Shown here piece by piece: positions 12,163 through 29,170 of a DNA stretch of 64,000 bases. Source of the DNA: Flexilinea flocculi (lineage in GTDB: Bacteria; Chloroflexota; Anaerolineae; Anaerolineales; Anaerolineaceae); assembly GCF_001192795.1 (NCBI RefSeq), contig NZ_DF968180.1, positions 124,001-188,000 on the forward strand, in the 5' to 3' direction. The position numbers were made by a program, and so were the translations under genes. Below the pieces are notes generated by a model, which saw only the letters and a program-made list of their open reading frames with translations, was not told the origin of the DNA and searched no databases. Every line of letters starts with the position of its first letter. Positions within the stretch are counted from its first letter, which is position 1.

Positions 12163-13233
12163 TTATTTTGTCAGACGTCTGAGTACATCGATGAGTATCT
12201 CTTTCGCTTTAATAAATTCAGGCAGATATAGGTGCTCATTCGGTGTATGATCCAGCGTTGAATCACCGGGTCCATAGGCAAGGCCGGGACAATTCCATGC
12301 AGGAGCCACCAGATTCAGATCCGCTGTGCCGGTTTTATAAACAAAGGCAGGTTGCCCACCGTTCGCGCGGATCGCCGGAAGGAATGCCCGAACCAGCGGT
12401 GAATTCTTTTCTCCGCGATATGCCGGTGTTGGGAATGCGGAATGAGAAATAATCGCATCCGGAGCAATCGATTCTAAAACTGCATAAAAATCTTCCGGCA
12501 TAAATCCTGGCGGAATTCTGGCACTGACCACCAATCGTGCCCATTGAGAAAAACCATCTTTTCCCGAATACCAGTTTGTCAGTGAAAACATAATCTGATC
12601 AAAAATTTTAGGACGGGATTGATTGTATTCCTTACACCACAAACGAATTTTTCCCCAAATTTCGGAAGCAATTTCACATGCAGTAGCCTCTTCACTGGCG
12701 CCATGGGTTACATCAGAAGAAATTTGGATACTGGACCACGCGCATCCTTTATACCCGAGGGCAATGCGATCCCAGCGGCTGGGTTCACCCACGATAACCA
12801 GTTCCGGTGAAAAATTGGGCAGCACAAAACGTGCCCCCATTCCATCACATTCCTCATCGACACAGGCAATTACAACAATCTGCCAGCCTGGAATTGATCC
12901 GAGTTGTGCGACACTGTCCACAAAACAGGATAAAGGCGCTTTCGCATCGACAGAACCACGACCGTATAGAATGTTATTTTCCACCGAAAACGGGATTTCC
13001 CCCGGAACTGTGTCAATATGTCCGAGCAGTACTAATTGTCTCGGACCATCTCCCATCACACCGATTGCATTACCACCACCGTCGACATAGGATTTTGTAA
13101 AACCCAGCGCTGCCATTCTGGCAACAAGCCAAAAAACAGCATCCGCTTCCGATCCGCTGGGGCTATACTTTTCCACCAGCCCGAATAACGTTTTGAATTC
13201 TTCCGGAGCTGTCAGCCAGTAATTATTCTCCAT
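12163..13233 (-). CDS. lysK: [LysW]-lysine/[LysW]-ornithine hydrolase (M20 family)
   Basis: Last step of the carrier-protein pathway: zinc peptidase that releases lysine or ornithine from the C-terminal Glu of LysW. The M20 metal-site motifs are present in order: GHIDTVPG (His-X-Asp), GRGSVDAKAPL (bridging Asp), DEECDG (catalytic Glu-Glu), then a late DHTPNEH motif. The start at 13233 (MENNYWLT) is preferred over an in-frame ATG 84 bases upstream. It gives the family length (356 residues), an AAGGA site precedes it, and the upstream extension resembles repeat sequence. It is separated from lysZ by a degenerate palindrome, so it may share the operon transcript or have weak separate expression. 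Confidence 0.92.
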   Translation of the reverse strand: MENNYWLTAPEEFKTLFGLVEKYSPSGSEADAVFWLVARMAALGFTKSYVDGGGNAIGVMGDGPRQLVLLGHIDTVPGEIPFSVENNILYGRGSVDAKAPLSCFVDSVAQLGSIPGWQIVVIACVDEECDGMGARFVLPNFSPELVIVGEPSRWDRIALGYKGCAWSSIQISSDVTHGASEEATACEIASEIWGKIRLWCKEYNQSRPKIFDQIMFSLTNWYSGKDGFSQWARLVVSARIPPGFMPEDFYAVLESIAPDAIISHSAFPTPAYRGEKNSPLVRAFLPAIRANGGQPAFVYKTGTADLNLVAPAWNCPGLAYGPGDSTLDHTPNEHLYLPEFIKAKEILIDVLRRLTK

Positions 13234-13253
13234 TCGTTGATGATCCTTATTCT

Positions 13254-13351
13254 CAGCGATTTGAATTATTGGAAAGACTATTTTTATTGCATTGTTTTTC
13301 ACGAAGCGCGTGTGCAATACAACAATAAGTTTTCCTTTTTGATTCGAAAGG
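13254..13351. repeat. Degenerate dispersed palindrome between lysZ and lysK
   Basis: Left end CAGCGATTTGAATTATTGG, partial arms TTATTGCATTG and CAATACAACAATAA, and a right end with TTCGAAAGG. The stem is imperfect. Nothing else is seen in the 269-base gap except the fragment CAACAATTTTCGATT near 13420. Confidence 0.5.
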
Positions 13352-13502
13352 TTATTCTAAATCTTGAATTGTTGCCTGATTCCGTAATCGTTATAATTCT
13401 GAATGATTGTAGTCAACAATTTTCGATTATAGAGAAGATTGCTTGTTTTTCTGTTGCTGAAAAAGTGTTGCAAGGATTGTCGAACAATCCGAAGAGCAAT
13501 GC

Positions 13503-14327
13503 TCAGCTAATCCATGTACAGTTGCCGGCAAGTGCATGATCAATCGGATTTTCCACACTGCCGTCCGCAATTAATACCCTGCCTACTCCTTTTTCAAGTG
13601 CTTCCTGTGCTCCTAACACTTTATTTTTCATTCTACCTTGTGCATAGTCCTGCAGCACTTCAATATCTTTTCGATCGACTTTTTTAATCAGCGTGGCCTC
13701 ATCCGGAAACGATTTCATCAATCCCGGCACTGCTGTCAGCAGAATTAATGTATCCGCTTTCATCGCTGCAGCCACTTCAGCAGCCGCACGATCCGCATCC
13801 ACATTGAGCGGTTCACCTGTCTTGCCGATTGCAACAGGTGCGACGACCGGTACTAGTCCCGCTGTAAGCAAAATATGCAACAGATCAGCCCGGACTGTAT
13901 CTATCTTCCCGCTGAAATCATCGCGGATGATCCGGCGTTTTCCATTTTCAACACTCTGAATCGCTTCTTTGCGCGTTGCCTGAATCAGTCTTCCGTCCAT
14001 ACCGGATATACCGAAGGCATTTACCCCGTTTTCCTGGAGTTGTGACACTAATTTCGAATTCACTTTCCCGTTAACAGCCATGATAAATACTTCCATGGTC
14101 TTCTGATCTGTATATCGGGAAGTATGCCCGGAGGGTGATGTAATAAAACGCGGTGGGACATTTAATTCCAATCCAAGCTGGTTGGCTTCCGCAGACCCGC
14201 CATGAACCAGGATTAATTGTTTTCCTTCCATAATCATACGGGCAGCATTGACACAAATGTGCGAAAAATCCACACCCTCTGTTCCGCCAATTTTTACAAC
14301 CATTATTTTTTGATTTTCATCATTCAT
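13503..14327 (-). CDS. lysZ: [LysW]-aminoadipate/[LysW]-glutamate kinase
   Basis: Amino-acid kinase (ArgB-like fold) that phosphorylates the side-chain carboxylate of the LysW-bound aminoadipate or glutamate. Seen: N-terminal MVVKIGGTEG (phosphate-binding Lys), LILVHGGSAEANQLG, the nucleotide-site NVDADRAAAEVAAAMKAD, LLTAVPGLMKSF, and a C-terminal NPIDHALAGNCTWIS that is typical of LysZ rather than ArgB. Length 274 is normal. It belongs to the lysW-X-Y-Z-K set. A strong palindrome (14386-14434) separates it from lysY, which may lower expression of the distal genes. Confidence 0.93.
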   Translation of the reverse strand: MNDENQKIMVVKIGGTEGVDFSHICVNAARMIMEGKQLILVHGGSAEANQLGLELNVPPRFITSPSGHTSRYTDQKTMEVFIMAVNGKVNSKLVSQLQENGVNAFGISGMDGRLIQATRKEAIQSVENGKRRIIRDDFSGKIDTVRADLLHILLTAGLVPVVAPVAIGKTGEPLNVDADRAAAEVAAAMKADTLILLTAVPGLMKSFPDEATLIKKVDRKDIEVLQDYAQGRMKNKVLGAQEALEKGVGRVLIADGSVENPIDHALAGNCTWIS

Positions 14328-14360
14328 AGCTTAATTTCCCTCCATTTGAGAAGTAATCAC

Positions 14361-14480
14361 CAATTTGAATTATGAGAGGGATTATTTGTTGTTGTGTTGT
14401 TTTTGCGCTCAGCGCAAAAACAACACAACAACAAGTTTTCTCTTTTTTACTCAAAAGGCTTTCCCAAATTTCGAACTGCT
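14361..14480. repeat. Dispersed palindrome with 24-bp perfect stem (lysY/lysZ junction)
   Basis: Arms 14386-14409 and 14411-14434 (TTGTTGTTGTGTTGTTTTTG start) are perfectly complementary around one base. Right end AAATTTCGAACTGCT. The whole right half closely matches the copy at 60730-60853. It abuts the lysY stop codon. Confidence 0.88.
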
Positions 14481-14481
14481 A

Positions 14482-15516
14482 TTATATGGGATGCAAGCCT
14501 GTGAATTCTAATCCCGTAGTTTCATCCATACCTGACATCAGATTCATGCATTGTATGGCCGTTCCTGCAGCACCTTTCATCAGATTATCAATGGCACAAA
14601 TTGAAATTAAATGACCATTCTGTGGATCAAAGTCGAATCCAAGATCCGCGAAGTTTGATCCTGCCAGAATTTTAGGTTCCGGAACTCTATATATCCCTCT
14701 TTGCTCATGGACCAGTCTCAGAAATGGGTTTTCATTGACTACAGTCCGATAAGCTGCCCATAAATCCTTCATCGTTACGGCAGATTTTGCCGCTGCATGG
14801 ACGGTTGCCAGCGCACCGCGCACCAGTTCAACCGATGTCATCGTCAGCGCAACTTTAGAAAGATGCATTTCCTGCATCACTTCCGCAGTATGACGATGTC
14901 CAAAACACGAAAATGTTCGAACGGTATTGCTTCGTTCCGGATGGTGCGATCCGGCATTTCCTTCCGCGCCGCCTTCGGAGGAACCAACTTTTATTTCAAC
15001 ATAAACCGGCTGATCCAAATCAATCAGTTCAGCTTTAACCAGCGGCATTAATGCCAGGTTGGCAGCAGTCGCATTGCATCCCACTCCGCTAATGTACTGC
15101 GCATGTCTAATTTCTTCTCGATGCAGTTCCGGCAAGCCGTATACAAATTTGGGCATCCATTCCGGTGCCAGATGGGGACTTCCATACCACTGCTGATACG
15201 TTGTTTCGTCTTTCAGGCGAAAATCGGCTGAAAGATCGATGATTTGTGGAGCCAGTTCAGCGTATTTTTGAATTTTCTTCATCGCCTGGCCATGGGGAAG
15301 AGCAAGGAATAAAATATCCACCGGTTCCACCTGATCCGGATCACAGAACTTCAACATGGTCCGTTTTCTTAGGTTTGGATGCACCTGATAGACATATTCG
15401 CCTAAATGGGAACGGGATGTGACCTGGGTTACCTCCGTCCCCGGATGATTCAACAAAAGACGGAGTAATTCACCACCACCGTAACCCGATCCTCCAATAA
15501 TCGCAGTCTTTATCAT
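14482..15516 (-). CDS. lysY: [LysW]-aminoadipyl/[LysW]-glutamyl phosphate reductase
   Basis: NADPH-dependent reductase of the ArgC fold that converts the LysW-bound acyl phosphate to the semialdehyde. The N-terminal Rossmann motif GGSGYGGGELLRLL and catalytic Cys147 in SGVGCNATAANLALM are visible, followed by the family segments VGSSEGGAEGNAGSHH and EVMQEMHL. Length 344 is normal. It overlaps lysX by four bases (15513-15516), showing translational coupling. The stop codon is two codons from the edge of a dispersed palindrome. Confidence 0.94.
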   Translation of the reverse strand: MIKTAIIGGSGYGGGELLRLLLNHPGTEVTQVTSRSHLGEYVYQVHPNLRKRTMLKFCDPDQVEPVDILFLALPHGQAMKKIQKYAELAPQIIDLSADFRLKDETTYQQWYGSPHLAPEWMPKFVYGLPELHREEIRHAQYISGVGCNATAANLALMPLVKAELIDLDQPVYVEIKVGSSEGGAEGNAGSHHPERSNTVRTFSCFGHRHTAEVMQEMHLSKVALTMTSVELVRGALATVHAAAKSAVTMKDLWAAYRTVVNENPFLRLVHEQRGIYRVPEPKILAGSNFADLGFDFDPQNGHLISICAIDNLMKGAAGTAIQCMNLMSGMDETTGLEFTGLHPI

Positions 15517-16364
15517 CGTTTTGCCACCTTCAGAACATATTCAACAATATGATCGGCGATATTCACACCGGTTGTCGGCTGTAGCGTATGGAATTCCATC
15601 GTATGATTGATTTCATTGATCATCAAACCACGGTTCGCATCTTCAAAAACATCAACCGCCAGAATTTCACCACCTACAGCAGCGGCTGCTTTGAGGCAGA
15701 TCGATTCCAGGTCAGGCGTGATGGGACAAATTTCCCCTTCACCGCCACGCGCCGTATTGGTAATCCAATGCTGCGATTTCCTGTAAATGGCTGTAACGAC
15801 TTTGCCGTCTATGACAATTGCACGGATATCCCGCCCCGGTTTGTCAATATATTCCTGGACATAAAAAACGGAGTGTAAAGCAGAACCCAGTGTAGATTTG
15901 TGTTCAAGGATTGCTTCCGCAGCATCGCGATCGTTCAGTTTTGCCAGCAGTCTGCCCCAGGAGCCCACAACCGGTTTTATTACTACAGGATAACCAAGCG
16001 CTTCAATGGCATCCAATGCGGACTCAGGTGTGAAAGCGCAAACATAACGAGGCTGTGGAATGCCTGCTTTTTCCAGCGCGCAGCTCGTTGCCAGTTTATC
16101 ACCGCAAACTTCAGCTGTCAGCGCGGTATTCACAGTCCGAATACCCCATCCATTCAAAACTTTCAGAGCATAAAGCCCGCTGTAATAACTGATACTGCGT
16201 TCTAAAACGCAGTCATATTGCTGCCAGGTCTCTACTCCCTTGGAATCCAGTACCAGCTTACGGTCATCGATTCGATCATAATCGACTCCGCGGGATTCAA
16301 GAGCTTCGAAAATCCATTTTTCTTCGACACGAAGACGGGAAAATAGCACACCGATTTTCGGCAT
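15513..16364 (-). CDS. lysX: LysW:aminoadipate/glutamate ligase (ATP-grasp)
   Basis: RimK-like ATP-grasp ligase that attaches the amino group of aminoadipate or glutamate to the C-terminal Glu of LysW. Seen: MPKIGVLFSRLRVEEK at the N-terminus, KPVVGSWGRLLAKL in the nucleotide site, YIDKPGRDIRAIVIDG, NTARGGEG, and the metal-binding end AVDVFEDANRGLMINEINHT. The start at 16364 is chosen because it forms TAATG with the lysW stop and has GGGGAG upstream inside lysW; an in-frame ATG 12 bases earlier is less likely. Whether the enzyme takes glutamate, aminoadipate or both cannot be decided from these motifs alone. Confidence 0.93.
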   Translation of the reverse strand: MPKIGVLFSRLRVEEKWIFEALESRGVDYDRIDDRKLVLDSKGVETWQQYDCVLERSISYYSGLYALKVLNGWGIRTVNTALTAEVCGDKLATSCALEKAGIPQPRYVCAFTPESALDAIEALGYPVVIKPVVGSWGRLLAKLNDRDAAEAILEHKSTLGSALHSVFYVQEYIDKPGRDIRAIVIDGKVVTAIYRKSQHWITNTARGGEGEICPITPDLESICLKAAAAVGGEILAVDVFEDANRGLMINEINHTMEFHTLQPTTGVNIADHIVEYVLKVAKR

Positions 16365-16534
16365 TATTCTCCCCAATCTTCCTGTTCCATCGGGGCTTCT
16401 TCAGCTGTCAATGGATCCAAAGATACAATTTCCAAATCAACACCACAATCCGGACACACAATGATCTCTCCGAGTTCTACAGACGGATCTACTTCGATTT
16501 CGGCTCCACATACAGGACAAGTAACGGTTTTCAT
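16364..16534 (-). CDS. lysW: Amino-group carrier protein LysW
   Basis: A 56-residue acidic carrier protein. Biosynthetic intermediates are attached to its C-terminal glutamate, which shields their amino group and presents them to LysX, LysZ, LysY and later enzymes. The zinc ligands Cys6, Cys9, Cys27 and Cys30 (CPVC, CPDC) and the hallmark C-terminus EDWGE are both present. AAGGAG lies 8 bases before the ATG. The stop overlaps the lysX start by one base (TAATG). It is the first gene of the operon, behind a leader with a terminator and a short Arg-containing ORF. Confidence 0.96.
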   Translation of the reverse strand: MKTVTCPVCGAEIEVDPSVELGEIIVCPDCGVDLEIVSLDPLTAEEAPMEQEDWGE

Positions 16535-16567: not shown

Positions 16568-16705
16568 ATAAAAAGCCCTCCTTGAAGGAGGGCTGCTTTT
16601 CACATATAAGACCGATCAGTGACAAAACACGACATCCCCGCTTCAAACCTGAAGGGAGTAATATCGGCTGGTTCGTCGAACAAATTGATCGAATAACATA
16701 ACTTT
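16568..16705 (-). promoter_or_regulatory. Attenuator leader of the lysWXYZK operon
   Basis: Minus-strand leader ending in an intrinsic terminator: perfect 10-bp stem AGCCCTCCTT / AAGGAGGGCT (16574-16594) followed by TTTTTATAT. Upstream are a hairpin (16636-16658, stem CTTCA/TGAAG extended by CUCC/GGGG) and a closing helix (16663-16668 with 16611-16616). The segment 16636-16646 (UUGAAGCGGGG) can pair with 16582-16592 (CCCUCCUUCAA) at 10 of 11 positions. This would destroy both the upstream hairpin and the terminator, so it is a candidate antiterminator. No known riboswitch class was recognised. Confidence 0.75.
16643..16699 (-). CDS. Putative leader peptide with three Arg codons
   Basis: A short ORF (ATG 16699, TGA ending at 16643) encodes MLFDQFVRRTSRYYSLQV. 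Arg codons (CGA) are at positions 8, 9 and 12, next to the leader helices. Its stop codon lies beside and overlaps the antiterminator strand (16636-16646). The ATG is at or very near the predicted transcription start, so it would be leaderless or nearly so; only a weak AAAG precedes it. The geometry fits ribosome-controlled attenuation by arginyl-tRNA, but translation of so short an ORF is an inference. Confidence 0.5.
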   Translation of the reverse strand: MLFDQFVRRTSRYYSLQV

Positions 16706-16733
16706 AGTTTATATATTTTTCAAAAACTGTCAA
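16706..16733 (-). promoter_or_regulatory. Promoter of the lysW operon
   Basis: On the minus strand TTGACA (16733-16728) is followed after 16 bp by TAAACT (16711-16706). The predicted start is near 16699, just ahead of the attenuator leader. Confidence 0.6.
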
Positions 16734-28961: not shown

Positions 28962-29027
28962 ATTCCTGCAAAAACATCTGGCAGGTTGACAAAAAATGGA
29001 GTAGAATCAATTTCAAGTATAGAAAAC

Positions 29028-29151
29028 ATTCTTTCAGGGCAGGGTGCGGTTTGAAAAAAACCTATTCCCGATCGGTGGTGACAATCCACAAGCGAAAGCT
29101 GACTCAGTGAAATTCTGAGATCGACGGTATAGTCCGGTATAAAGAAAGAAG
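29028..29151 (+). promoter_or_regulatory. FMN riboswitch aptamer
   Basis: The sequence follows the FMN aptamer closely: TTTCAGGGCAGGGTG, ATTCCCGATCGGTGGT, GTGAAATTCTGAGATCGACG, GTATAGTCCGG and a closing strand GAAAGAA that pairs with TTCTTTC at the start (P1). The usual order of helices is preserved, with an A-rich P2 loop. FMN binding is expected to repress the riboflavin transporter genes downstream. Confidence 0.93.
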
Positions 29152-29170
29152 TGACCTGGTTAAGGTTCAT

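Follow-up and report, generated by a model that had tools for sequence, protein, structure and literature searches.

How a LysW-type biosynthesis operon is controlled, and for which amino acid, is the question raised by a short leader upstream of lysW in Flexilinea flocculi. The window, i.e. the whole stretch of 64,000 nucleotides that was analysed, carries this leader on its minus strand. Attenuators of the trp/his type in proteobacteria consist of a leader peptide, a protector hairpin, an antiterminator and a terminator, and the initial annotation of this DNA read the region as an arginine-sensing attenuator of the trp type. Conserved Arg codons, covarying pairings and the absence of an Rfam match support this reading, and of the refuting conditions named with the initial annotation none was borne out, as far as sequence can show. 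We put at roughly 0.88 the probability that the lysW leader acts as a ribosome-mediated, trp-type transcription attenuator sensing charged tRNA-Arg; this is a reading of the sequence, and there are no expression data. The leader is made up of the following elements.

16728 to 16733, minus strand: -35 element TTGACA; the same kind of element is present in relatives.
16706 to 16711, minus strand: -10 element TAAACT, with a 16-nt spacer to the -35 element and 6 nt ahead of the leader ATG.
16643 to 16699, minus strand: leader ORF MLFDQFVRRTSRYYSLQV, TGA stop included, probably leaderless; counterparts in loci L009 and L010.
16673 to 16678, minus strand: Arg codons 8 and 9 (CGA CGA), seen in the sequence, with CGN at the aligned dicodon of relatives.
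16664 to 16666, minus strand: Arg codon 12 (CGA); L009 and L010 likewise have Arg here.
16650 to 16658, minus strand: strand 1, the 5' arm of the protector hairpin, CTCCCTTCA, supported by sequence, family pairing and folding.
16635 to 16645, minus strand: strand 2, the 3' arm of the protector hairpin and also the antiterminator strand, TGAAGCGGGGA; its first triplet is the leader stop codon.
16583 to 16592, minus strand: strand 3, which has as partners either strand 2 or, as the terminator 5' arm, strand 4.
16570 to 16594, minus strand: intrinsic terminator with a T run, supported by sequence, family pairing, folding and the composite scan.

The coordinates that the initial annotation gave for the promoter, the 18-codon ORF, the hairpin, the antiterminator strand and the terminator all hold on the sequence. 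The ORF opens with an ATG at 16699, and the Arg codons reported at positions 8 (16678-16676), 9 (16675-16673) and 12 are present, all three as CGA; the leader has no Lys codon. The proposed pairing between the antiterminator segment and the 5' part of the terminator was recovered as 10 pairs with one mismatch between strand 2 and strand 3 (16592-16583), G-U pairs being counted. The arms of the terminator lie at 16594-16587 and 16581-16574 and are followed by the T run, which ends 35 nt upstream of lysW. Codon 12 ends 5 nt short of strand 1 and the stop codon opens strand 2. A composite scan of both strands of the window, requiring a -35 element matching at least 5 of 6 positions, TAnnnT, an ATG 5-11 nt further on, an ORF of 7-40 codons and a terminator, gave a single match, at the lysW leader, which folds with a z of -4.0 against dinucleotide shuffles.

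From this geometry the following course of events is predicted. RNA polymerase would start at the leader ATG or a few bases away from it, and a ribosome would translate the 18-codon ORF, itself probably leaderless. When Arg-tRNA is ample the ribosome would reach the stop codon and mask strand 2; with strand 2 covered, strand 3 would pair with strand 4 and transcription would end upstream of lysW. When Arg-tRNA is scarce the ribosome would stall on the Arg codons and mask strand 1, and strand 2, thus freed, would pair with strand 3, so that no terminator forms and transcription continues through lysWXYZK. If the ORF is not translated, strand 1 would pair with strand 2 and the terminator would form. 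In many relatives the leader stop lies further downstream than in the window, and there a protector hairpin re-forming behind the ribosome would be needed for an equivalent effect. This scheme infers where transcription starts, that initiation is leaderless, that the ORF is translated and the ribosome stalls, and that arginine sets the outcome, there being no transcription or ribosome data. What sequence and comparison establish is the ORF, the conservation of its Arg codons, the competing pairings, the terminator and the association with arginine genes across the order.

The conservation of the leader was followed among the heads of lysW and argG operons, with promoters and terminators chosen by a rule blind to codons. 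Among 92 distinct heads with at least 200 nt of upstream sequence, a terminator was found in 85, a promoter in 82 and an ORF between promoter and terminator, with its frame kept open, in 81, which does not in itself demonstrate translation. No terminator was seen in seven of the 92 heads, five of which are argH-first. For the head in the window a weaker site came out of the rule, and the leader site was assigned by hand. At least two Arg codons are present in 80 of the 81 ORFs picked by the rule and at least three in 75; one ORF has a single Arg codon. Removal of 6 near-duplicates from 82 leaders left 76 for alignment, and RR stands in frame in 67 of these as compared to 13 and 12 in the other two frames. 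The nearest relatives, L009 and L010, carry RRxxR at the same positions as the window (leaders MLFDLSFRRTIRYYSLQV and MLKIQSTRRGGRNYSLQM). The short ORF and its Arg codons are thus conserved in relatives, as the initial annotation requires. The cultured relative Longilinea arvoryzae has such a leader as well, in L080. It should be noted that the species are related, so that the counts are not independent and all are inflated by relatedness.

The choice of codons is itself restricted. The aligned dicodon was counted in 73 leaders: at its two positions 67 and 64 codons are CGN (CGT, CGA, CGG or CGC), with a third base that is mostly T or A and rarely G or C; non-Arg codons there include Lys and Ser codons, and neither AGA nor AGG occurs in any of the 73. 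The window, L009 and L010 are omitted from this count as their Arg codons were misaligned, and they were checked by hand. Zero entropies at the first two codon positions result from the selection of RR cores and were not counted as evidence. As AGA and AGG are absent, the RNA itself may account for some of this restriction. Riboswitches and protein-controlled attenuators, too, use a terminator with a competing hairpin as their expression platform; in addition, a partly conserved closing helix is present in the leader, and its Arg dicodon keeps CG at the first two positions throughout. It could be argued from this that an arginine-binding riboswitch or a regulatory RNA-binding protein acts on the terminator and that the ORF is incidental. 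We consider this highly improbable. The Arg codons lie in frame 0, which is kept open, with 6 stops within the first 20 codons against 34 and 31 in the other frames; the Arg share of the first 20 residues is 18.9% in this frame against 11.4% and 5.0%. Moreover, the codons switch to Lys before most lysine-type operons, which would be unexpected from an arginine aptamer.

An Rfam search, which had been suggested with the initial annotation, matched the window leader to no known riboswitch family, nor to any other family, at gathering score; the best match, a weak one to Phe_leader, reached 18.9 bits on the leader strand and 24.7 on the opposite strand, the threshold being 55. The same search on 27 loci with such leaders (L008 being the window's own place, and L158 and L227 overlapping) gave no riboswitch, T-box or amino-acid leader at gathering score. 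Riboswitch or T-box identity was rejected on the basis of these searches of the window and the 27 loci. An FMN riboswitch is present above gathering score elsewhere in the window, at 29026-29153 on the plus strand.

For the attenuator reading the pairings matter as much as the codons. The terminator that an attenuator of the trp type needs is present in 85 of the 92 heads, and in the alignment of 76 sequences 91% of cells show its helix 3:4 paired, 8 of the 10 pairs having double changes. The protector hairpin is paired in 75.5% of cells, with double changes at 6 of 8 pairs, and the antiterminator 2:3 in 78.3%. Covariation of the 2:3 pairing, which the initial annotation had named as a check, is above that of shuffles, at 0.170 against a shuffled mean of 0.127 (0 of 500 shuffles reach it) and at most 0.108 for slid versions. 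Two of the five covariation measures, pair counts and pair types, fail to clear the shuffles in both analyses: pairs changed on both sides were matched by 58 of 500 and 124 of 500 shuffles, and further pair types by 48 of 500 and 42 of 500. Duplexes of a leader's own strands 2 and 3 average -17.0 kcal/mol as compared to -14.5 kcal/mol with mismatched partners, and the own duplex has z below -1.5 against shuffled leaders in 68 of 82. In the window, strand 3 ranks 26th of 82 partners for its leader, 25 others scoring better. The mutually exclusive antiterminator and protector hairpin of a trp-type attenuator are found with exceptions, namely L034 (z 0.89), L036 (z -0.78) and the argG leader of G004. 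The closing helix, which includes the Arg codons, is paired in its main part in 68% of cells. Such a helix had been described for the window, where it is less certain than the other elements; a comparable outer helix does appear in the window's own minimum-energy fold, and in the register of the family it is not formed, being absent from the model's alignment of the window.

The weakness of the 2:3 pairing in some leaders, together with the lack of expression data, leaves room for the view that the leader only fixes basal read-through or answers to the general state of translation, with no arginine sensing. The conservation of the Arg codons and the way in which codon content matches the downstream pathway speak against it, and we regard it as very unlikely.

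A point absent from the initial annotation is that the leader ORF is probably leaderless, to judge from its promoter, as there is no mapped start site. Bacterial transcription usually starts about 7 nt downstream of the -10 box. In the window the leader ATG lies 6 nt past the -10 hexamer with no Shine-Dalgarno sequence ahead, and a start about 7 nt past the hexamer leaves no space for a ribosome-binding site. Consensus promoter boxes stand directly before the ATG in the window and in relatives: of 81 leaders, 59 have a gap of 10 nt between -10 box and ATG and 75 a gap of 6-10 nt, and among the 11 argG heads of the genus the gap measures 7 nt in 10. It cannot be excluded that transcription starts downstream of the leader ORF.

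Downstream of the leader the operon runs as follows.

16364 to 16534, minus strand: lysW, over the cut-off of TIGR01206.
15513 to 16364, minus strand: lysX/argX, over the cut-off of TIGR02144.
14482 to 15516, minus strand: lysY/argC, over the cut-off of TIGR01850.
13503 to 14327, minus strand: lysZ/argB, over the cut-off of NF010659, [LysW]-aminoadipate kinase.
12163 to 13317, minus strand: lysK/argE, just under the cut-off of NF003367, [LysW]-lysine hydrolase, and over that of TIGR01902.

The lysW gene starts with an ATG at 16534, preceded by AAGGAG at 16547-16542. On reading, the window operon (12163-16534, minus strand) lacks the aminotransferase-like gene that is found between lysZ and lysK in L131 and L126. 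Among named relatives in the species collection a Flexilinea isolate comes closest, with a LysX that is 88% identical.

The window LysW operon most likely makes arginine, lysine being made by another route; this is an inference from gene content, drawn because the genome has a lysA of its own, above its curated cut-off. A dapA-family protein is present under its cut-off, and argG and argH lie adjacent to each other elsewhere in the genome. In 141 loci in which lysW was placed, the operon heads are argG-argH-lysW in 77, argH-lysW in 28, argG-lysW in 3 and lysW-first in 33, some places being counted twice and many argH heads being cut by the end of the stretch. Leader codons that name the product of the operon are a further mark of trp-type attenuators, and here the codons meet it, with arginine as the product backed by the argG-argH-lysW order and by the lysA. 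The initial annotation had allowed that the pathway perhaps also makes lysine. This is unlikely here, with no Lys codon in the leader and only one LysX in the genome at E 1e-60; a lysine role for the window operon was rejected on this single LysX, on lysA and on the dapA-family protein falling short of its cut-off, homocitrate synthase not being among the genes sought.

Leaders of the same design stand before argG. The argGH leader of the same genome, MNKKSSTNFVRRGYRNE, starts 7 nt after TATAAT and has a hairpin ACCGCAA/TTGCGGT and a terminator CTCCGCA/TGCGGAG; its strands are unrelated in sequence to those of the lysW leader. By eye, no such leader was seen in the stretches upstream of argF and lysA in this genome. 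The genus has argG in 12 of 14 genomes, and an RR leader is present at all 11 argG heads with a readable upstream region, the head of G003 lying beyond the contig end. These leaders were first listed by an Arg filter; the codon-blind rule agrees in 10 of 11 and picks another site in L231. The pairing of strands 2 and 3 has z below -1 in 10 of the 11, and G004 fails with z 0.31. A LysW match is absent in 10 of the 14 genomes, some of which are incomplete, and seven of these 10 have an Arg leader before argG. Two argG genes are present in G009, sharing 52% and 81% identity with that of the window genome, and each has an RR leader (L131 4367-5641; L232).

A second LysX, which shares about 50-55% identity with that of the window, occurs in many relatives, often downstream of homocitrate-synthase-like and homoaconitase-like genes. 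The composite scan was extended to 1.62 Mb, mostly chosen around arginine genes, and gave 110 distinct leaders. Nine of them have neither RR nor three Arg codons, and four of these nine are Lys-rich leaders before LysX or homocitrate synthase, e.g. MMNQNVFVKKAKKTQPDSTTLFG. Among 20 lysine-type heads the scan found a leader in 16 (7 of 7 LysX-first heads and 9 of the 13 that open with a homocitrate-synthase-like gene), and reading added three more (L150, L251 and L252); in L249 none was seen by scan or reading. In this set L134 is a repeat of L252 and L138 of L251, L247 is cut and L119 lies within a lysW cluster. Homocitrate synthase is over the TIGR02146 cut-off in L141 and L133 and just under it in L245 and L120; the remaining genes were named by likeness. 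Lys codons equal or outnumber Arg codons in 11 of the 16 scanned leaders, and Arg codons are in excess in the other five (L120, L121, L130, L133 and L248), with cores such as DKRVKR. Leader codon content, as far as it can be judged from such sequences, thus tends to follow the downstream pathway, with mixed cases. In L146 and L242 tandem Lys-rich leader-terminator units lie upstream of a lysine-type LysX, e.g. MNNQFNSISLTKKAKTNIF then MNKKILFNTIKKMVKKQKPDRYLVSF, the second unit having a weaker -35 box.

In lysW clusters with a second LysX downstream, about 10 kb or less away, Lys occurs in the leader core in 6 of 7 cases as compared to 10 of 69 elsewhere (Fisher p 2e-4, relatedness being ignored; three of the seven belong to one genus). 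For the homoaconitase and isocitrate-dehydrogenase-like genes of two-LysX clusters the reading rests on L126 alone. In G024, G057, G037 and G035, four genomes with clusters of this kind, the separate argGH leaders have cores RVRR or RARR and no Lys. As LysW pathways can make either amino acid, this distribution could suggest that the window leader, too, senses arginine and lysine together. With a leader free of Lys codons, in a genome with one LysX and a lysA over cut-off, such dual sensing is extremely unlikely for the window.

To judge from model matches, the attenuator family appears to extend beyond lysW and argG. A covariance model, R1, was built from 73 leaders and run on 101 relatives. 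Its E-values are unreliable, as E 0.01 gives matches in 74 of the 101, many of them plain or opposite-strand terminators. At E ≤9.4e-6 there are 52 matches, 28 at lysW or argG heads of lysW operons and 24 elsewhere. The 24 comprise 11 at argG, 4 at carAB, 4 at basic-amino-acid transporters and 5 terminators without such a link (L211, which is from the window's genome, L253, L254, L256 and L257), and the 13 best of the 24 (E ≤6.2e-7) are all relevant. The transporter is of the ABC type, with a binding protein closest to the Lys/Arg/Orn family, yet below cut-off. Transporter leaders have Lys and Arg and often His codons, as in MLQNCPLLELDPKRGAKHIRLPLEGTGISA from L217, which was taken from lower in the R1 list (E 6.0e-5). 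With stricter filters, a scan of the phylum at E 1e-7 matched 13 of 301 genomes, all in the order of the window.

Two further observations concern these operons. The carAB operons of L198, L199, L200 and L201 have Arg-codon leaders, though carbamoyl phosphate also supplies pyrimidines. In L092, at about 1545-1390 on the minus strand, a Thr-codon leader MKIILTTAACTFGMTMSTTSGNHREALALGQR of the same layout, with a terminator, precedes an aspartate kinase gene that is over the TIGR00657 cut-off; we take it to resemble thrL in logic.

Control of arginine genes is known in other forms. The ArgR repressor is a DNA-binding protein that controls bacterial arginine genes according to arginine supply, and arginine T-boxes bind tRNA directly; the mechanism proposed for the window leader differs from both. 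Its likeness to trp/his attenuators lies in leader codons for the operon product and in protector, antiterminator and terminator in the same order; it differs in having Arg (and, in the wider system, Lys) codons, a probably leaderless ORF and no Rfam match, and in belonging to another phylum. In the parts of the papers available to us, ribosome-mediated attenuators of the trp/his type are mentioned in PMC3766115 and PMC1262725, and arginine T-boxes are named in PMC1262725. As far as its accessible text goes, the latter, a 2005 survey of Actinobacteria, reports no conserved RNA structures upstream of arginine or lysine operons, and T-boxes for arginine elsewhere. The former, a survey of 2013, confines its amino-acid attenuators to those motifs that Rfam contained at the time, His, Leu, Thr and Trp, again in the portion available. 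The nearest precedent in layout, judged from an extract, is in mycobacteria, organisms rich in leaderless transcripts, where cysteine-rich upstream ORFs are proposed as amino-acid attenuators (PMC4633059). They too are short ORFs at the head of the message; those ORFs concern cysteine and Actinobacteria, whereas the system described here has intrinsic terminators, covarying antiterminators and arginine genes. According to the available part of PMC13009471, Arg codons in the leader peptide of S. aureus rbfL sense arginine limitation; there a pausing ribosome keeps translation of a biofilm regulator from starting, whereas read-through into biosynthesis genes is predicted for the window. In the Salmonella speF leader the arginine level acts via alternative conformations of the mRNA leader (PMC6386406, seen as an excerpt), and the enzyme controlled belongs to polyamine metabolism, unlike the arginine synthesis downstream of the window leader. 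In the open-licence literature we found no account of bacterial arginine synthesis, or lysine synthesis of the LysW type, under ribosome-mediated transcription attenuation, and none of such leaders in Chloroflexota; an earlier prediction in a subscription journal remains possible for either.

Taken across the order, it seems reasonably probable, though well short of settled, that Anaerolineales run much of their amino-acid supply by attenuators with leaderless leader peptides, the codons of each peptide naming what its operon supplies: Arg ahead of argGH, lysWX and carAB; Lys, alone or with Arg, ahead of alpha-aminoadipate/LysX genes; Arg, Lys and His ahead of basic-amino-acid transporters; and Thr, in one case, ahead of aspartokinase. 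If this is true, leaderless ORFs with intrinsic terminators would seem able to support control of the trp type. The leader codons would then separate ArgX from LysX without an assay, so that arginine or lysine could be assigned from sequence alone to LysX paralogues, which NCBIfam names alike. For a large and mostly uncultured group of bacteria, this would amount to a readable regulatory code for amino-acid supply.
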